Source: an uncultured Victivallis sp. (lineage in GTDB: Bacteria > Verrucomicrobiota > Lentisphaeria > Victivallales > Victivallaceae). From it: a stretch of DNA of 64,000 nucleotides. The stretch lies in assembly GCA_944389895.1 (NCBI GenBank), contig CALXOA010000078.1:1-64000 (forward strand). Direction: 5' to 3'. The notes under the pieces are model-generated. The model was not told the origin of the DNA. It saw only the letters and a program-made list of their open reading frames with translations, and did no database searches. Position 1 is the stretch's first letter; each line of letters begins with the position of its first letter. Shown one piece after another: positions 23,898 through 34,737 of the stretch. The translations under genes and the position numbers were made by a program.

Positions 23898-24725
23898 TCA
23901 GCGCTCGCGAAACCGGGTCGGACTGACACCGATGCTGCGTCGGATCACCCGGCAGAAGTAGCTGGTGTCGGAGAATCCGGAACGGCTCGCAACCTCCGCC
24001 AGCGGCAGAAATGTCTGCTGCAACAGAGTCAGTGCGTGCTGAATCCGCAGTTTCGACAGGTACTCCGAAGGGGCTAGACACATTTTCGCCTTGAAGATCC
24101 TGCGCAACGTCGAACGATCCAATCCCAGCTCCTCGGCGAGGTGGTTCACATTGAGGTCAGGATCGGAGAATCGTTCCCGGCAGATACGGATCGCCGCCCC
24201 GATGATACGCCCTTCGCGGGTGGAATCGTCATTGCGCCCTCCGGCCCGCGCCAGAAGCGAAGCGATCACCGCAACCATCTGCCGCCAGCCGTAGGGACTC
24301 ATCTCAAGCATCAGTGTTTCCAGCTCGGAAAACAGATCATGCGGACAGGGACCGGCGTGAAACCCGGTCCGCGGGTAACGGTAGCTTTCGAAGAACGGCT
24401 GCGCACCCTCGCCGTCAAACACCACCCAGCGATATTCCCACGGAGCGGAAACCACCCGATGAAGATGCGGCTCGAGCGGAAGGTGGACAATTACATCATC
24501 CGCCCCGAACAATACGGGCCTGCCGTCTATCAGAAACTCGCCGCTTCCGGCGATTCCCCAGAAAAGCTGAACAAAGTTCTTCTCCCCGGCCGGTATTGTT
24601 TCACTCCAGCCATCCGGCAGGGTGAAATGACCGATCGAACGGGGATAAAACGGCAGGGGAATATTCGGCAGCGTATTCGGATCAGGACGATGTACCACCC
24701 GGGTTTCGGCATACGACCGGACCAT
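23898..24725 (-). CDS. AraC-family transcriptional regulator (GH4 locus)
   Basis: A 275-residue AraC regulator with an N-terminal cupin sensor (residues ~15-150, including GEFLIDGRPVLFGADDVIVHLP) and a C-terminal double helix-turn-helix (residues ~175-275, LNVNHLAEELGLDRSTLRRI and LAEVASRSGFSDTSYFCRV). I chose ATG 24725 since GGAG lies 5 bases upstream; a GTG two codons earlier is less likely. It is divergent from the GH4 gene, its presumed target, and the shared region holds a 15-bp direct repeat. Confidence 0.9.
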   Translation of the reverse strand: MVRSYAETRVVHRPDPNTLPNIPLPFYPRSIGHFTLPDGWSETIPAGEKNFVQLFWGIAGSGEFLIDGRPVLFGADDVIVHLPLEPHLHRVVSAPWEYRWVVFDGEGAQPFFESYRYPRTGFHAGPCPHDLFSELETLMLEMSPYGWRQMVAVIASLLARAGGRNDDSTREGRIIGAAIRICRERFSDPDLNVNHLAEELGLDRSTLRRIFKAKMCLAPSEYLSKLRIQHALTLLQQTFLPLAEVASRSGFSDTSYFCRVIRRSIGVSPTRFRER

Positions 24726-24761
24726 TTCCACTCCATTGCCCCCAAAATGCTATTATTGAAT

Positions 24762-24831
24762 CAAAAATACGATTGCAGTTCCGTTCTCCCGCATGATATA
24801 GTATAACAGCACACCGCAAAAATACAATTAC
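24762..24831 (+). promoter_or_regulatory. GH4 promoter with AraC-type direct repeats
   Basis: CAAAAATACGATTGC (24762-24776) and CAAAAATACAATTAC (24817-24831) match at 13 of 15 positions and start 55 bases apart. The first overlaps the -35 TTGCAG (24773-24778); the -10 TATAGT is at 24797-24802 (18-base spacer); the second lies between the transcript start and the GH4 ATG. Direct repeats are typical AraC-family half-sites. Confidence 0.5.
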
Positions 24832-24855
24832 TCCAAAGGAACGAGAGGACGGAAA

Positions 24856-26211
24856 ATGTCGAAAATCGCGATTATCGGCGCCGGCGGCGTCATCTTCTCC
24901 CAGAACTTCATGAGGGACATTCTGCTCGATGAGGAGTTGCGCACCCGGGAGGTGATGCTGATGGACATCGATGCGGAACGGCTCGGGCACGCCGCCACCT
25001 TCGGACAATTGATTGCCGGGAAACTGAAGGTTGAAGCAAGATTCCGCACCACCACGGATCTGCATGAAGCGGTTCGCGGAGCGAAATATGTGATCACGAT
25101 CTTCCGCTCCGGAACCATCCGCCATCAGGAGCTGGAATATGCAATCCCGATGAAGTACGGGGTCGATCAGGTGGTTTCAGACACCCTCGGGCCGGGCGGG
25201 GTTTTTCGCGGATTGCGCACCTTGAAACATCTCTTTGAAGTGCTTGACGCGATGGAGGAGGAGTGTCCGGGCGCCTGGCTCTTCAATTACGTCAATCCGA
25301 TGTCGATGAATACGATCGCGTTGTCGCGCCGGGCAAAGACCGTTCACGTGATCGGACTCTGTCACAGCGTTCAACACACCTCCCGCCAGATTGCCGAATG
25401 GCTTGAGATTCCCTATGAGAAGCTCCATTTTGTCGCGGCAGGGGTCAACCACCAGGCGTTTCTGCTGAAACTTGAGGCGGATGGGCGCGACCTCTATCCG
25501 GAGATGCGGAAACTTCTCGCCGTCCCCGAAATCTACCAACGGGAAAAGGTGCGGTTCGAAATCATGCGCCACTTCGGTTACTTTCCGACCGAAGGCAGCG
25601 GCCACGCTTCGGAGTACATTGCCTACATCCGCAAACGGCAGGATCTGATCGACCGATTCTGTTCCAACGACTTCCCGAAGATCGATGCGGACGGCATCGA
25701 CTGGGGGACGATGGGGTCCGGCGTCACCGGCGCGTCGGTTGAAATCTGCAGACGGCTTCAGCTCCGGAACGAACGTGACCTTCGAGAGTACCTGGCCGGA
25801 ACCCGGGAGATCGAGATCAAGCCGAGTGCGGAGTACGGTGTCCAGCTGATCGCCGCGATGGAGAAAAACTACTGTTTCGCGGCTAATCTCAACGTGATGA
25901 ATCACGGACTGATTCCGTCACTGCCGCCGGAGTGCTGCGTTGAAGTTCCCTGCCTCGTCAACGGTGCGGGTATCCTGCCGACCCGGATGGAACACTATCC
26001 GGAGCAGCTCGCAGCGCTCAACCGCGGCATGATCAACGTACAGCTGCTGGGCGCGCAGGGCGCACTCGACGGCGACCGCCGCGCAGTGTTTCACGCGATC
26101 GCCGCCGATCCGCTGACCGCCGCAAAACTCGGACTCGATGAGATCCAGGCAATGACGGACGAACTTTTCGAAGCGCTCCGCAGCGAGATCGATCCACGGT
26201 TTTTCCGCTGA
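24856..26211 (+). CDS. GH4-family NAD-dependent glycosidase (alpha-galactosidase/alpha-glucuronidase type)
   Basis: A 451-residue cytoplasmic enzyme of glycoside hydrolase family 4, which cleaves glycosides by an NAD+- and Mn2+-dependent oxidation-elimination mechanism. The N-terminal Rossmann motif is GAGGVIFSQNF. The metal-binding Cys and His are in VIGLCHSVQ (about residue 174) and GVNHQAF (about residue 203). NPMSMNTIAL is the usual substrate/NAD segment. GLCHSVQ resembles MelA-type alpha-galactosidases and alpha-glucuronidases more than phospho-beta-glucosidases. It is monocistronic, opposite an AraC regulator. Confidence 0.9.
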   Translation: MSKIAIIGAGGVIFSQNFMRDILLDEELRTREVMLMDIDAERLGHAATFGQLIAGKLKVEARFRTTTDLHEAVRGAKYVITIFRSGTIRHQELEYAIPMKYGVDQVVSDTLGPGGVFRGLRTLKHLFEVLDAMEEECPGAWLFNYVNPMSMNTIALSRRAKTVHVIGLCHSVQHTSRQIAEWLEIPYEKLHFVAAGVNHQAFLLKLEADGRDLYPEMRKLLAVPEIYQREKVRFEIMRHFGYFPTEGSGHASEYIAYIRKRQDLIDRFCSNDFPKIDADGIDWGTMGSGVTGASVEICRRLQLRNERDLREYLAGTREIEIKPSAEYGVQLIAAMEKNYCFAANLNVMNHGLIPSLPPECCVEVPCLVNGAGILPTRMEHYPEQLAALNRGMINVQLLGAQGALDGDRRAVFHAIAADPLTAAKLGLDEIQAMTDELFEALRSEIDPRFFR

Positions 26212-26227: not shown

Positions 26228-27235
26228 TCAGAACCCGGGGAACCCGCATGATGCCAGATGGCACCGCAGCCGGGCGGCGGAAACCGCGCCGCCGCTGGCG
26301 GTGGGAGAAAGTAAATTGAAATAGCTTGAAGCGCTGCCGAGAGCCAGCGTCTGCTCCAGGGGGAGACGGCGGCAGAGCCCGTAGAGCACTCCGGCGCCGA
26401 AGGCATCCCCGGCGCCGTTGGCACCGACGATTTCTCCGGGCGAAATCTCACAGGAGGGAACCGTCAGAAACAAGCCATCCCTCTGCAACGCGGCCGCCCC
26501 CTCCGGATAGTGGATCACGACAAGCTTCCGGACGCCGCACTCGAGAAGAGATTCCGCAGCCGGGCGCAGCGCCGCCTCGACCAGTCGACCGTCATCACTT
26601 CGGAGTTGCCGGCCGGAACAGGCGGACGCCTCGACTTCGTTGAGGAGCAGTACATCGACATGCGGCAGTGCGGCTTCCGCCGCGGCGCGAAATTTCTCCG
26701 GAGCTTCCGAAACGAAATCGACCACGGTCTCGTAACCTTTGCCGCGCATTGTATGGAGCAACCGGGCGGCCACGGTACCGAAATCGGGGTCGGTGGCGTC
26801 GAGCCGGTCGAGCAGCAGCAGATAACCGAGGTAGAAGAAGCGGGCCGGAACTTCGATTCCCGCAAGATCGGCACAGGAGAGTTCGGCATTGACGCCTCGC
26901 CGGTGGAAGAAGGTTCGGCGGCCGCAACCGGACATCACATCGGTGTAGCTGGTGGAACCGCCGGCGGAACGAATCATTCCGGCGGCATCGATGCCGCGGC
27001 TCCGCAGCTCCCCAAGCAGGTAATCGCCCTCCTCATCGCAACCGACCCGGCCGGCGGCGTAAAGCGGCAGTTCGGGATCAATCGCGGCGAGATCAAAGAG
27101 GATGTTGCAGGGACCGCCGCCGCAGGAACGGGTTTCCGCAAGAATGTTGCAGAGATTCCCCTCTCCCGGCCAGCGATCGATCTCCTTGACCTTGTCGAGA
27201 ATCCAGTTTCCGGCGGCAATCACCCCCTCACGCAT
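26228..27235 (-). CDS. PfkB-family sugar kinase
   Basis: A 335-residue ribokinase/PfkB-type kinase. The N-terminal GGGPCNILFDLAAI is the sugar-binding Gly-Gly region, and the C-terminal GANGAGDAFGAGVLYG is signature 2 with the catalytic Asp; the normal DTxGAGD reads GANGAGD here. I chose ATG 27235 because it overlaps the stop of the isomerase gene by 8 bases (coupled translation) and begins MREGVIAAGNWI, the expected first strand. It would phosphorylate the ketose made by the upstream isomerase (fructose, xylulose) or L-ribulose from AraA nearby; the substrate is not readable from the sequence. Confidence 0.85.
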   Translation of the reverse strand: MREGVIAAGNWILDKVKEIDRWPGEGNLCNILAETRSCGGGPCNILFDLAAIDPELPLYAAGRVGCDEEGDYLLGELRSRGIDAAGMIRSAGGSTSYTDVMSGCGRRTFFHRRGVNAELSCADLAGIEVPARFFYLGYLLLLDRLDATDPDFGTVAARLLHTMRGKGYETVVDFVSEAPEKFRAAAEAALPHVDVLLLNEVEASACSGRQLRSDDGRLVEAALRPAAESLLECGVRKLVVIHYPEGAAALQRDGLFLTVPSCEISPGEIVGANGAGDAFGAGVLYGLCRRLPLEQTLALGSASSYFNLLSPTASGGAVSAARLRCHLASCGFPGF

Positions 27236-27929
27236 GGCGAACCTCCGCGAAATGCTGCCGGTATTCGGCGGCAAGCAGATGTTCCGGCTCTTCATCCTCC
27301 TCGACGGGATCGAAACGCGGGACTCCGTCGATGAAGCAGTTGTCCGTAGTGTCGTCATTCACCATTGAAACTTCTCCGACCAATACATTGCCGGAACCCG
27401 GCTCGCCGTAGAAACGGTGAGCGTGGATCGGCTCGAGAGCGACGCTGTCGCCCGGAGTGAGGATGATTCGGTCCCCCGGGGAGAGTTCGCGCCGCAAACC
27501 ATTGACCGCGATCCGGAACTTCCCGGGAACAAGAACGTTGCGTTCCGGGTCGGCATGAAAGAGTTCAATGATCAGGTTACCGCCGCCGCGATTGATGATG
27601 TCTTCGCGCTTGTACCAGTGAAAATGACGGGGGGTGACCTGGTTTTCACGAACCATCATGATCTTTTCGGCGTAGGGTTTCGGGTAAAGGGTCGAACCGG
27701 GCAGGCCGTTGCGCAGCGTGAAAAGCAGCAGTCCGGTATGGAGGAAATCCTCCGAACCGAAAGCGGTTACATCCCATCCGAGCTGCAATTCGAAAATTTC
27801 GGCGGCATCGGCGACGACTTTCCGCCAGTCGGCGGGCGAAAAGAGTGCCCAGGGAGGCAGTTTGAAGTTCATCTGATCGAAAAACTCAATTCCTTCACGG
27901 ATGCGGCGGTTGATTTCAGAGCGTTTCAT
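27228..27929 (-). CDS. D-lyxose/D-mannose ketol-isomerase (cupin type)
   Basis: A 233-residue cupin enzyme of the D-lyxose isomerase family, which interconverts D-lyxose and D-xylulose and, in characterised members, D-mannose and D-fructose. Diagnostic metal-site region: EKIMMVRENQVTPRHFHWYK, then EDIINRGGGNLIIEL, with a later His in LEPIHAHRFYG. Start ATG 27929 (MKRSEINRR) has AAAGGA 8 bases upstream; the frame is open to 27962. It is the first gene of an operon with the PfkB kinase and is divergent from the AraC gene at 28041. Confidence 0.9.
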   Translation of the reverse strand: MKRSEINRRIREGIEFFDQMNFKLPPWALFSPADWRKVVADAAEIFELQLGWDVTAFGSEDFLHTGLLLFTLRNGLPGSTLYPKPYAEKIMMVRENQVTPRHFHWYKREDIINRGGGNLIIELFHADPERNVLVPGKFRIAVNGLRRELSPGDRIILTPGDSVALEPIHAHRFYGEPGSGNVLVGEVSMVNDDTTDNCFIDGVPRFDPVEEDEEPEHLLAAEYRQHFAEVRHA

Positions 27930-27956: not shown

Positions 27957-27985
27957 TTGCAATTATATTCAACGTATAGTATACC
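27957..27985 (+). promoter_or_regulatory. Promoter of the AraC gene at 28041
   Basis: TTGCAA (27957-27962), 17 bases, TATACC (27980-27985). TATACT on the opposite strand at about the same place may serve the isomerase operon, so the two promoters would overlap. Confidence 0.5.
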
Positions 27986-28006
27986 GGAAAAAGATCCGGA
28001 AATCTC

Positions 28007-28039
28007 TTGTTTTTTTATCGACTGGTGATACTTTTTTAA
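28007..28039 (-). promoter_or_regulatory. A-tract double site upstream of the AraC gene (candidate operator)
   Basis: Read on the minus strand: TTAAAAAAGTA (28029-28039) and TAAAAAAACAA (28007-28017), 21-22 bases apart. The same pair, in the opposite orientation, lies before the aldolase gene (28922-28954). Here it lies between the predicted transcript start and the ATG, where binding would block the AraC gene itself. Confidence 0.55.
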
Positions 28040-28040
28040 T

Positions 28041-28910
28041 ATGAAATACCATTTTGAAAAAGTACTCGCTGCACCGGATGAATCGTTCCGGGCGGTGATC
28101 GAGGATGGCCCGGTTATCGATTGCGTGTTTCACGTCCACCCGGAGATTGAATTGACCTGGGTGGAATCGAGTTTCGGTTGTCGCTTCATCGGGGAGTCGA
28201 TAGAGCCTTTTTTCGAAAATGACCTCGTGCTGATCGGCGGCATGGTGCCGCACCACTTCTTCAACCGTGCGGATGACGGTTCCGGACCACAGTGGAGCAG
28301 GTTGCGCGTGATGAAATTCCGCCGGGAGTTCTGCGGTACCGGTTTTCTGGAACTGCCGGAGACCGCGGGGATCCGGGCGCTGCTCGACGAGACTCCCGCC
28401 GGACTGGCATTTCCGCCGGAAACGGCAACCCGGGCGGCGGAATTGATTCGCCGCCTCTTCACACAGAAGGGCTTGGCGCGTCTGCTGACCTTTCTCGAAC
28501 TGCTCGAACTGCTCGCGGCTTCACCACGCCGGAAACTCAATCCCGGTCCCGCGGTCGCGGAGGGACAGGAGCCGGATGCACGGCTCAACCGGATCCTCGG
28601 TTACATTCACCGCCGCCTCGAAAGCGGGCACGAGGTCACGCTCGGGGAAGCCGCCGCAACCGCGTGTCTGACCGCCCCGGCTTTCAGCAGTTACTTCCGG
28701 CGCGCAACCCGGAAACGGTTCATCGATTATGTAACGGAATTTAAATTGAACCGGGCGGCGCTGTTGCTGGTACGCAGCGACCGGGCGGTAGTTGACATTG
28801 CACTGGCATCCGGTTTCGGGAACCTCTCCAATTTCAACCGCCGTTTTCTCGCCAGCAAGGGGATGACTCCACGCGAATACCGCCGCCGCTTTCGGATCCC
28901 AGCACTCTGA
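28041..28910 (+). CDS. AraC-family transcriptional regulator (pentose locus)
   Basis: A 289-residue AraC regulator with an N-terminal cupin (residues ~25-80, CVFHVHPEIELTWVESSFG, then NDLVLIGGMVPHHF) and a C-terminal double helix-turn-helix (residues ~190-287, VTLGEAAATACLTAPAFSSYF and VVDIALASGFGNLSNFNRRF). No ribosome-binding site is obvious before the ATG; instead, an A/T-tract half-site ends one base before it. It sits between the isomerase/kinase operon (divergent) and the aldolase/araA genes (same strand), and the shared double sites suggest it controls both. Confidence 0.9.
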   Translation: MKYHFEKVLAAPDESFRAVIEDGPVIDCVFHVHPEIELTWVESSFGCRFIGESIEPFFENDLVLIGGMVPHHFFNRADDGSGPQWSRLRVMKFRREFCGTGFLELPETAGIRALLDETPAGLAFPPETATRAAELIRRLFTQKGLARLLTFLELLELLAASPRRKLNPGPAVAEGQEPDARLNRILGYIHRRLESGHEVTLGEAAATACLTAPAFSSYFRRATRKRFIDYVTEFKLNRAALLLVRSDRAVVDIALASGFGNLSNFNRRFLASKGMTPREYRRRFRIPAL

Positions 28911-28921
28911 CCGCCCATTTT

Positions 28922-28954
28922 CTTAAAAAAGTACCGGTTCCGCTTAAAAAACAA
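28922..28954 (+). promoter_or_regulatory. A-tract double site upstream of the aldolase gene (candidate AraC operator)
   Basis: CTTAAAAAAGTA (28922-28933) and CTTAAAAAACAA (28943-28954) start exactly 21 bases apart, two helical turns, the spacing of classical AraC half-sites. The flanks GTA and CAA match those of the inverted copy at 28007-28039. I see no convincing -35 here, which fits an activator-dependent promoter. Confidence 0.6.
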
Positions 28955-29036
28955 TGGGACGACTGTTTGAAGACGGAGTATGGTATATGGTCGTAGACAA
29001 GGATTTTCTCTTCATAATCGAAAGGGGGGCTGTCGC

Positions 29037-29909
29037 ATGTCGCTTGTTTCACTTCGGGAATTGTTGGTGGAGGCGCGTCGTGCCCGCTATGCCGTGCCGA
29101 TGTTTGATGTTTCCAATGCCGCGATGATGCGTGCCGCGGTGGAAGTGGCCGAAGAGGAAAACTCCCCGGTCATTCTCGCGGGAATTGAACCGGATCTCGA
29201 AGGTTCCATGATCGAATACTGGAGTTCAGCCGCCCGGCTCGCGGCTTTCCGGGCGAAGGTTCCCGTTGCGGTGATGCTCGATCACGCGGCGACGCCGGAA
29301 CTCTGCCGCCGTGCCGCGGATGCCGGTTTTTCCGGCGTGATGATCGATGCTTCCAGCGAGCCTTTTGAACGCAACGTCGAATTGACGCGGCTCGTTGCAA
29401 CGGAGATGCACCGCCGCGGCGTCAGTGTCGAGGCCGAACTCGGACACGTCGGAGACGGCAGCGCAGGCGCAGGAGAAGCAGTCCTGACCGGTTCGGAAGG
29501 TACGCACAGTGTCTACACCGATCCCGCTTCGGTTGCGGAGTTCGTCGCCCGCTCGCAATGTGATGCGCTGGCGGTTTCGATCGGAACGGCCCACGGCGTC
29601 TATGCAACCGCGCCTCAATTGAAGATCGACCTGCTGGCCGAGATCAATGCGATCTCTCCGGTGCCGCTGGTGCTGCACGGGGGTTCGGGAACGCCCGAGG
29701 AGCAGTTGCGTGCTGCAATTGCCAACGGCATTGCCAAGATCAACATCTGCTCCGAGGTGATGTACGCGTGGCATAAAACGCTGCTGGACGAACTCTCCTC
29801 CGCACCAAATCTCTCATACTGGGATGTAACCGCCTGCATGAAACCGGAGCGGGCAATCCGCGAGGTGATGCGTGCGAAAATCCGGTTGTTCGGCAGCAAC
29901 CGCGCCTGA
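29037..29909 (+). CDS. Class II ketose-bisphosphate aldolase family protein
   Basis: A 290-residue zinc aldolase of the Fba/GatY/KbaY family, cleaving a ketose phosphate to DHAP and an aldehyde. Catalytic Asp and zinc His are in VMLDHAAT (about residue 82), other zinc ligands are in SIGTAHGVY and VLHGGSGTP, and AKINICSEV is the DHAP phosphate loop. The ATG at 29037 follows a GGGGGG-containing ribosome-binding site; the frame is open to 28980. The context with AraA, a PfkB kinase and lyxose isomerase suggests a pentulose or hexulose phosphate substrate, which the sequence alone cannot settle. Confidence 0.88.
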   Translation: MSLVSLRELLVEARRARYAVPMFDVSNAAMMRAAVEVAEEENSPVILAGIEPDLEGSMIEYWSSAARLAAFRAKVPVAVMLDHAATPELCRRAADAGFSGVMIDASSEPFERNVELTRLVATEMHRRGVSVEAELGHVGDGSAGAGEAVLTGSEGTHSVYTDPASVAEFVARSQCDALAVSIGTAHGVYATAPQLKIDLLAEINAISPVPLVLHGGSGTPEEQLRAAIANGIAKINICSEVMYAWHKTLLDELSSAPNLSYWDVTACMKPERAIREVMRAKIRLFGSNRA

Positions 29910-30085: not shown

Positions 30086-31513
30086 ATGGATGGAAATCAT
30101 CTGAAGAAGTATCAGATCTGGTTCATCACCGGCAGCCAGTCCCTGTACGGGGAAGAGACGCTGCGTCGCGTGGAGGAACATTCGCGGCGGATCGTCGACG
30201 CCCTGAACCGTTCCGGAGAAATCGCCCTCGACCTTGTCTGGAAACCCACCGTCAAAACCCAGGCGGAGATCACGGCAACCCTTCAGGCCGCCAACCTGGA
30301 TTCCTCCTGTGCCGGAGTGGTCTGCTGGATGCACACCTTCAGTCCTGCCAAAATGTGGATCAACGGGTTGAAATTACTCCAGAAGCCGATGCTGCATTTG
30401 AACACCCAGGCCAACCGCGATATCCCCTGGGCCGCGATCGACATGGATTTCATGAATCTGAACCAGGCTGCCCACGGCGATCGCGAATTCGGTTACCTCT
30501 GCACACGTCTCGGCCTCCGTCGCAAGGTGGTCAACGGCTATTATGATACTCCCCGGGTACGCGCCGCAATCGATGTCTGGGGGCGCGTCGCCGCCGCCTG
30601 GCTGGATTCACAGACGATGAAGGTCGCCCGCATCGGAGACAATATGCGCGAAGTCGCCGTGACCGAAGGCAACAAGGTTGATGCTCAGATACAGTTCGGT
30701 TACGCAGTCGACGGTTACGGGGTTGGTGATGTGTTGAAATTCATCTCGGCGGTCTCCGATCAACAGGTCGGGGAGCTGGTGGAGGAGTATTTCGATCTTT
30801 ATACGGTGCCTGAACGATCGGAAGCGACGATGAAATCGATTCGCGCCGCCGCCCGTCAGGAGATCGGCATCCGTGACTTTCTGGAAACCGGCGGTTACAC
30901 CGCATTCACCACCACGTTTGAAAATCTGTATGGCTTTGATCAGCTTCCGGGGCTGGCGGCCCAGCGGCTGATGGCCGACGGGTACGGTTTCGGAGCAGAG
31001 GGAGATTGGAAGACCGCCGCGCTGCTCCGTACCATGAAGTTGATGGCTGCAGGCAGGCGCGGTGGAGTCAGTTTCATGGAGGATTATACCTACCACTTCG
31101 AGCCGGGACGGGAACGGGTGCTGGGAGCGCACATGCTTGAGGTCTGCCCCTCCATTGCCTCCGGACGGCCAAGCCTTGAAGTGCATCCGCTGGGGATCGG
31201 CGGCAAGGCGGATCCGGCCCGCCTGGTGTTCTCCACGCCGCCGGGAGAGGCGATCAATGCGACGATGGTGGAGTTCGGTTCGAACTTCCGGCTCGTGGTC
31301 AATGAGCTGGAAATCGTCGCGCCGGATGCGCCGCTCCCGCAACTTCCGGTCGCAAGGACGGTCTGGATTCCGAAGCCGGATCTCGCCGAAGGCGCAAGGC
31401 GGTGGATTGAAGCCGGCGGTGCGCATCACAGCGTGAATGCCCCGGCGTTGACGACGGAATTTATGGAGGATTACGCCCGCATGGCCGGCGTCGAGCTTAT
31501 TTTGATTCGCTGA
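30086..31513 (+). CDS. araA: L-arabinose isomerase
   Basis: A 475-residue enzyme converting L-arabinose to L-ribulose in the cytoplasm. Family features are the N-terminal WFITGSQSLYGEE, LNTQANRDIPW, and the active-site region SFMEDYTYHF...HMLEVCPSIA, which contains the metal-binding Glu and His. Start: GGAAGG lies 9 bases before the ATG at 30086 (MDGNHLKKYQIW), so I prefer it to the ATG at 30077. It follows the aldolase gene by 176 bases on the same strand. No araB or araD is in the window; the kinase and aldolase steps may be done by the neighbouring PfkB and class II aldolase. Confidence 0.96.
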   Translation: MDGNHLKKYQIWFITGSQSLYGEETLRRVEEHSRRIVDALNRSGEIALDLVWKPTVKTQAEITATLQAANLDSSCAGVVCWMHTFSPAKMWINGLKLLQKPMLHLNTQANRDIPWAAIDMDFMNLNQAAHGDREFGYLCTRLGLRRKVVNGYYDTPRVRAAIDVWGRVAAAWLDSQTMKVARIGDNMREVAVTEGNKVDAQIQFGYAVDGYGVGDVLKFISAVSDQQVGELVEEYFDLYTVPERSEATMKSIRAAARQEIGIRDFLETGGYTAFTTTFENLYGFDQLPGLAAQRLMADGYGFGAEGDWKTAALLRTMKLMAAGRRGGVSFMEDYTYHFEPGRERVLGAHMLEVCPSIASGRPSLEVHPLGIGGKADPARLVFSTPPGEAINATMVEFGSNFRLVVNELEIVAPDAPLPQLPVARTVWIPKPDLAEGARRWIEAGGAHHSVNAPALTTEFMEDYARMAGVELILIR

Positions 31514-33849: not shown

Positions 33850-34737
33850 TTACTTCAACAAAAACGTATCGTTGACGATGGTCAGAGAATTTTCCTTGAG
33901 AGTATGCCGGATCACCCGGCCGCCGCGCCACCCCTCCGGCAGTTTCCAGACCAGCTGAGAAGCATGCGGAGCGATGTGAACGATGGCGAACTCGGTTGCA
34001 TGTTCCGGAACCGGATTGCTGAAGGGAACCGGATTGCCGGCTTTGTCGAGAAACGTAAATTCAAGTACCCGGCTTCCGGGCGACAGCTTGACCCGGGTGG
34101 CGGGAAGAACGGCAATATAGGCGATCTTGCCGGTACCGTAGCTCTGAAGCAGGGTGTTGGCGTGATTCCAGCTCTGCCCCCGATACCCGCGCCAGATACC
34201 ATCTCCGGCAAGATTGAGAGCGCCGAGGGGAAGTTCCCGAACCTCTTCCGACCATTCCCCTTTCTTTCCGACGGTGATGTTCCTGTATCCGGAGCCGTTC
34301 GGATGCAGCGTAAACGTCATGCCCCCGTGGAGTTTGCAGGCGAGCCACGCCCCGCGCGGTACCGGAACGGGAAGAGAGATACCGCCGTTTTCCGTCGGAA
34401 CGGTCAGAAGCGGCTGGTAATTTTCCGTGATTTCCGCGACCGGGACACCATCCTGAACACCGGCTTTCGGAGCATTCCAGACGCCGTCTTTCCGGTGGTT
34501 GCCGGGCAGAAGGCCGGGCGAGCAGTGTGCCGGCTCCCCGAATACGCGAATCGCGACGTTCTGCATTCGGAGGAGATCGGCGCTTTTTCCGGTCTCGGCT
34601 CCGCCGATGGCCAGATCGGAGGTGCCTGCGGCTTCATCGCGCAATTTTGCGCCATCGATCGACTCCCAGGGCACCGGCGCGGCAGACAGCACCGCCCCCA
34701 GCAGAAAAGCTGTCGAAATGGAGATGAGCTTATGCAT
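33850..34737 (-). CDS. Unrecognised secreted protein
   Basis: A 295-residue exported protein. A signal peptide (MHKLISISTAFLLGAVLSA) is followed by a mainly beta-strand protein with many Gly, Pro and aromatic residues; it resembles a carbohydrate-binding or jelly-roll module, but I recognise no family. ATG 34737 has AAAGGAAG upstream and overlaps the end of the LacI gene by 8 bases, so translation is probably coupled. It is the second gene of the LacI-pilin 3-GH51-like operon. Confidence 0.7.
   Translation of the reverse strand: MHKLISISTAFLLGAVLSAAPVPWESIDGAKLRDEAAGTSDLAIGGAETGKSADLLRMQNVAIRVFGEPAHCSPGLLPGNHRKDGVWNAPKAGVQDGVPVAEITENYQPLLTVPTENGGISLPVPVPRGAWLACKLHGGMTFTLHPNGSGYRNITVGKKGEWSEEVRELPLGALNLAGDGIWRGYRGQSWNHANTLLQSYGTGKIAYIAVLPATRVKLSPGSRVLEFTFLDKAGNPVPFSNPVPEHATEFAIVHIAPHASQLVWKLPEGWRGGRVIRHTLKENSLTIVNDTFLLK

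Follow-up and report, generated by a model that had tools for sequence, protein, structure and literature searches.

The two A-rich double sites that flank the gene of an AraC-family regulator in an uncultured Victivallis species are, with high probability, operators of that regulator, from which it would activate, in class II fashion, a sugar regulon of four transcription units. Judged from sequence, each A-rich double site is very probably a docking site of the regulator encoded next to it at 28041–28910 of the window, i.e. the whole 64,000-nucleotide stretch of contig that was analysed (Table 1). Under the proposed mechanism, a dimer of this protein would bind two direct-repeat half-sites lying 21 bp, or two helical turns, apart. 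Once a sugar ligand was bound, the nature of which is guessed from gene content, it would most likely replace recognition of a -35 element and drive lyxI-pfkB, ald, a GH42 glycosidase gene and a GH38 alpha-mannosidase gene. This reading draws on the conservation of the site, its genome-wide specificity, the geometry of the promoters and its co-occurrence with the regulator.

The resulting 36-bp putative operator, set in a constant promoter geometry, connects two distant glycosidase genes with the isomerase-kinase-aldolase set. A literature search found no AraC-family regulon in Lentisphaerota and nothing directly relevant on this regulon or pathway, so this may be one of the first regulons in Lentisphaerota whose operator has been delineated by comparative footprinting.

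Table 1. Features of the putative regulon in the window, and matches of the leave-window-out profile (model R2) in the whole genome
Feature	Position	Strand	Remarks
PfkB-family sugar kinase, second operon gene	26228..27238	-	PF00294 2.2e-26; ketohexokinase and YdjH among solved relatives
lyxI, D-lyxose/D-mannose isomerase family, first operon gene	27228..27929	-	PF07385 6.8e-87; nearest solved 3kmh
-10 hexamer TATACT	27978..27983	-	starts 56 nt from start of site 1
Double site 1, toward isomerase/kinase operon	28004..28039	-	full sequence TTAAAAAAGTATCACCAGTCGATAAAAAAACAAGAG, read 28039 down to 28004
Double site 1, proximal half	28018-28004	-	ATAAAAAAACAAGAG
Double site 1, distal half	28039-28026	-	TTAAAAAAGTATCA
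AraC-family regulator, 289 aa	28041..28910	+	N-terminal cupin-like domain, C-terminal double HTH; PF12833 1.5e-17, PF00165
Double site 2, toward ald	28923..28958	+	TTAAAAAAGTACCGGTTCCGCTTAAAAAACAATGGG
-10 hexamer TATGGT	28979..28984	+	starts 56 nt from start of site 2
ald, class II ketose-(bis)phosphate aldolase	29037..29909	+	PF01116 1.1e-81; TIGR00167 above cut-off; YdjI and AgaY among solved relatives
araD 3'-end fragment, just before araA	30037..30084	+	LFNRKYGKDVHHGWK against HYFRKHGKNAYYGQK of intact araD
araA, L-arabinose isomerase, regulon membership doubtful	30086..31513	+	NF002795 745 bits, cut-off 622
R2 match 1	site 1, before lyxI		26.1 bits
R2 match 2	C31:13819, just upstream of GH42 gene		25.0 bits; GH42 gene MNLGVQYYRAPFPEQ..., PF02449 1.6e-37
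R2 match 3	C99:15333, just upstream of GH38 alpha-mannosidase gene		21.9 bits
R2 match 4	site 2, before ald		19.9 bits

The double site and its genome-wide distribution

It had been predicted that both intergenic regions beside the regulator gene carry the same A-rich double site, and this was found to be the case far beyond chance. A scan of the window with a 32-base composite at up to three mismatches recovered exactly sites 1 and 2 and nothing more; shuffled windows gave a mean of 0.01 matches, and none of 100 shuffles reached two. At the same tolerance the 3.76-Mb genome had four composite matches, against zero for a reversed control pattern. Frequent occurrence in unrelated intergenic regions, which would have counted against the reading, was not seen.

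The halves that the dimer would contact, distal AAAAAAGTATC and proximal AAAAAAnCA...G running into the -35 region, form a direct repeat in a 21-bp register. Self-similarity of the site peaks at direct-repeat offset 21, and a half-site spacing of 21 is seen in nearly all sites of the comparative set, which bears out the predicted likeness to an AraC double site. The spacing had been given as 21–22 bases; the apparent 22 in site 1 arises from one extra A, the conserved A6 blocks lying 21 bp apart in the orthologue alignment. The motif as first written captured the A-tracts and omitted the best conserved letters, namely GTATC after the first A-tract and C-A...G after the second, of which GTATC and the final G hardly vary. 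Beyond its A-tract the proximal half is under weaker constraint, and C-A is displaced by one base in both ald sites. The two copies, described originally as oppositely oriented, are so on the chromosome; relative to the units they would drive (site 1 the isomerase/kinase operon, site 2 the aldolase gene), their orientation is identical.

To avoid circularity, the ten sites used to build a profile (model R2) were all taken from other species. In the source genome it found four sites at 19.9–26.1 bits, the next match scoring 11.8, and all four precede functionally related genes (lyxI and the PfkB kinase, the class II aldolase, GH42 and GH38). The original prediction of a single regulon is supported as regards the regulator and its two neighbouring units, lyxI-pfkB and ald; it was incomplete, since the GH42 and GH38 units elsewhere in the genome also carry the site, and it is not supported for araA, as set out below. 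Two further matches were set aside as chance: C54:18233 (two mismatches; not recovered by the profile models), which has a GntR-type gene on one side and an unrelated ORF on the other, and C99:23391, with a tRNA and a topoisomerase-like gene nearby, which scored 11.8 bits with the leave-out model. A loose pattern gave no information in A+T-rich relatives, its reversed controls being as frequent there. No Rfam elements were found in the 23–36 kb part of the window.

The regulator and promoter geometry

The 28041 protein has an AraC-type double HTH, with both PF12833 and PF00165 above cut-off and seven helices in the modelled C domain. Its N-terminal domain gave no Pfam call. The AlphaFold model (mean pLDDT 82.3, pTM 0.60) combines a helical C domain with a beta-barrel N domain, as in a cupin-like sensing domain, and among the structures it resembles in fold are full-length members of the AraC family, the regulatory domains of RhaR and AraC, and DNA-binding domains of AraC type. 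Of the sugar-type N domains matched by fold, that of RhaR is the nearest. RhaS/RhaR and MelR-type regulators likewise belong to the AraC family and act in sugar catabolism, but all equivalog scores of the 28041 protein are far below cut-offs, that for the arabinose AraC equivalog NF007860 (NCBIfam) being 36.1 against a cut-off of 208 bits.

Direct-repeat sites overlapping the -35 region are the usual layout of AraC-type activated promoters. At the E. coli araBAD promoter, the direct-repeat half-sites araI1 and araI2 lie about 21 bp apart and the promoter-proximal half reaches the -35 region. E. coli AraC shares with the present regulator its family, a sugar-binding-type N domain and a double HTH, but the half-sites here are A-tract based and the targets are isomerase, kinase, aldolase and glycosidase genes. 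In E. coli, araI1 and araI2 are occupied on induction (PMC6018408).

A -10 hexamer begins at position 55 or 56 from the site start in 18 of 18 sites (at least four of six matches to TATAAT with A2 and T6 fixed; background 0.0105 per position), and TATATT was counted by hand at 55 in a nineteenth, that of G071. Sites of different species are not independent; the source genome's four promoters count as separate loci, and with two positions allowed at each the chance expectation is about 0.021 to the fourth power, or 2e-7. A -35 consensus, sought in the 18 sites, was present at background level (two of six matches in ten sites, three in three and four in five), and the proximal half-site extends into the -35 position. 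The lack of a recognisable -35 combined with a -10 at invariant distance makes a class II activator most likely. The direct-repeat half-sites about two helical turns apart, with the proximal one over a poor -35 and a fixed -10, conform to a class II AraC-type promoter, and by analogy an AraC-type activator would here lie over the -35 position.

A repressor could also use a site overlapping -35, the bound dimer blocking RNA polymerase there until sugar releases it. We consider such repression at the four units unlikely: promoters whose -35 hexamers match no better than background would be poor unaided, and direct-repeat sites placed over -35 are typical of activators in this family.

Since site 1 abuts the araC start codon, ending 1 bp from the ATG, the regulator probably controls its own gene in addition to the four units; repression would be the simplest form of such control. 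In Victivallis this arrangement (window 28026–28041) also affords no space for a Shine-Dalgarno sequence, so that the araC mRNA may be leaderless; at least 16 bases separate the distal half-site from the araC start in relatives from genera g3 and g18.

Conservation of the site and co-occurrence with the regulator

The source genome (3.76 Mb in 131 contigs, here G000, the window lying on contig C78) has near relatives labelled Victivallis. Orthologues of the regulator (E below 1e-60) were found in 11 of 78 genomes of the same family, its own included, with one more on a Victivallales contig (L021); their identity is 40–62%. All 11 of these genomes, as well as the L021 contig, have the composite. 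It stands upstream of nearly all the orthologues, the closest having TTAAAAAAGTATCAT-N8-AAAAAATCAAGAG, and always points away from araC toward a divergent operon. This operon is lyxI-pfkB, ald-lyxI-pfkB or, in genera g3, g12 and g18, a group of genes that includes one for a NagB-like and one for a PIG-L-type protein; in G071 the regulator and the site are on separate contigs. G075, a sister species, has the same gene set as the source genome, with sites before lyxI, ald and GH42, the second copy lying between araC and ald as the counterpart of site 2. Its GH42 orthologue is 69% identical and carries the site, and its GH38 orthologue (71%) lies directly behind ald, so that the gene set is common to two species. 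A weaker site precedes another GH38 protein in G072.

In the same-genus genomes that have no regulator (G069, G070 and G073), the site was not found at E<=0.05. Eleven genomes without an AraC orthologue encode LyxI homologues of 47–70% identity (G062, G043, G053, G038, G010, G016, G013, G015, G048, G041 and G069), and the best composite in the 400 bp upstream of these scores 15–17 of 29, compared with 26–27 where the regulator is present (22 in G071). The family-wide profile tally is partly circular, most strong sites having trained R2; the second sites (GH42, GH38, ald and G072:C60) and the absences are free of this. Genomes with an AraC orthologue account for the matches of at least 20 bits, apart from one short match in G064, where the homologue is more distant (35%). 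Weak matches at E 0.003–0.01 occur in genomes without the regulator too and are probably noise. The neighbourhoods of distant homologues (28–35%) in Rhizobium, Pseudovibrio, Comamonadaceae and others contained no lyxI, kinase or aldolase, and the regulon is accordingly not traced outside Lentisphaerota.

These distributions bear on two further explanations, each of which we regard as very unlikely. The first is that the A-tracts act as an UP element or by intrinsic curvature, boosting promoters that have only a -10 element without any specific regulator. The tracts are in phase, and the proximal one lies near -45 to -40, where UP subsites are located; the distal tract, however, lies beyond the region usual for UP elements, at about -66 to -61, and the conserved letters include the near-invariant GTATC and last G as well as A. 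Moreover, only four promoters in the genome have the site, and it is missing where the AraC orthologue is missing.

The second assigns the site to another regulator, such as the AraC-type protein at 23898 or the LacI-type protein at 34730, both nearby and of sugar type. Against this, in relatives the site accompanies the 28041 orthologue and lies immediately beside the gene for it. In tblastn searches with the 23898 and 34730 proteins, neither was found beside a Victivallis or Victivallales site, and weak matches appeared only at two distant loci (L087 and L088) with no recognised site. A paralogue of the 28041 regulator in G068:C12 also has its own diverged site in the same place. Chance similarity of A-tracts, a simple sequence, in an otherwise G+C-rich window can be set aside as scarcely credible given the shuffle and reversed-pattern controls, the independent recovery of the sites by the leave-window-out profile and the fixed -10 geometry.

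Two side observations concern related regulators. The G068 paralogue is 37% identical, its diverged site lies at L085 6159–6196, and the gene that follows encodes a 270-aa protein without a Pfam match. In the window, a second AraC-family gene is divergent from a GH4 alpha-galactosidase-like gene (23898–26211), where no copy of the double site is found.

Predicted pathway and the position of araA

The combination of a LyxI-family isomerase, a PfkB kinase and a class II aldolase with GH38 and GH42 glycosidases suggests conversion of an aldose to a ketose, phosphorylation and cleavage, and the regulon looks like one of mannoside/ketose rather than arabinose catabolism. The nearest solved relative of LyxI is the E. 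coli O157 D-lyxose isomerase (3kmh, E 6.7e-67), but LyxI, which has the family domain PF07385, scores 291.5 bits against the NCBIfam D-lyxose/D-mannose isomerase equivalog NF051472, below the cut-off of 350. E. coli YdjH and YdjI show the same pairing of PfkB kinase and class II aldolase; in the window the pair is preceded by a D-lyxose/D-mannose isomerase.

The regulon is most readily interpreted as serving a catabolism of mannosides or related sugars that does not depend on uptake: the glycosidases would release an aldose of the mannose or lyxose type, the isomerase would yield the ketose, the kinase its phosphate and the aldolase would cleave this. The single kinase, together with YdjH and YdjI among the solved relatives of kinase and aldolase, makes a ketose-1-phosphate intermediate plausible, and the kinase resembles ketohexokinases in part. 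Prokaryotic formation of fructose-1-phosphate in vivo has been published for a haloarchaeal ketohexokinase, where a second kinase follows (PMC11519228). The regulon makes this possible ketose-1-phosphate pathway testable.

In genera g3, g12 and g18 (L080 7409–9092, L082 8161–9986 and L084 1364–4942), the regulator and site accompany a NagB-like protein, a PIG-L-type deacetylase and a PfkB kinase with no lyxI, and the aldolase is also present in the L080 and L084 sets; these may be an amino-sugar version of the pathway, and this variation counts against the main reading with its ligand guessed from gene content. A joint scheme can be offered tentatively, in which mannose freed by GH38/GH42 would be isomerized to fructose, from which the PfkB kinase would make the 1-phosphate for the class II aldolase to split into DHAP and glyceraldehyde, amino sugars in the related genera entering the same kinase and aldolase through the PIG-L deacetylase and NagB-like deaminase. 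If the ketose-1-phosphate reading is true, the conserved regulator-site pair would have retained the later steps of the pathway through an exchange of the entry enzyme.

The inclusion of araA, which had pointed to arabinose, was not supported. Four other Victivallis genomes (G075, G068, G074 and G073) have araA directly after araD and without such a site, G073 possessing araD-araA without any AraC orthologue. In the source genome araA, the only AraA there, lies 176 bp behind ald and beside an araD 3'-end fragment. Its placement is therefore probably a rearrangement, apparently a recent one, and araA was probably not an original member of the regulon. Intact araB and araD were found on the same contig (C78, 78599–80882, minus strand; L209), 48 kb from araA and in opposite orientation; elsewhere araA belongs to araBDA. 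This led to rejection of the view that araA stands in for a missing araBAD set. The simplest reading, and a probable one, is that araBDA was split by an inversion of about 48 kb, which moved araA to its place behind ald, with misassembly as a possible alternative. Transcription from the ald promoter may continue into araA, although the gene is not conserved as part of the regulon.
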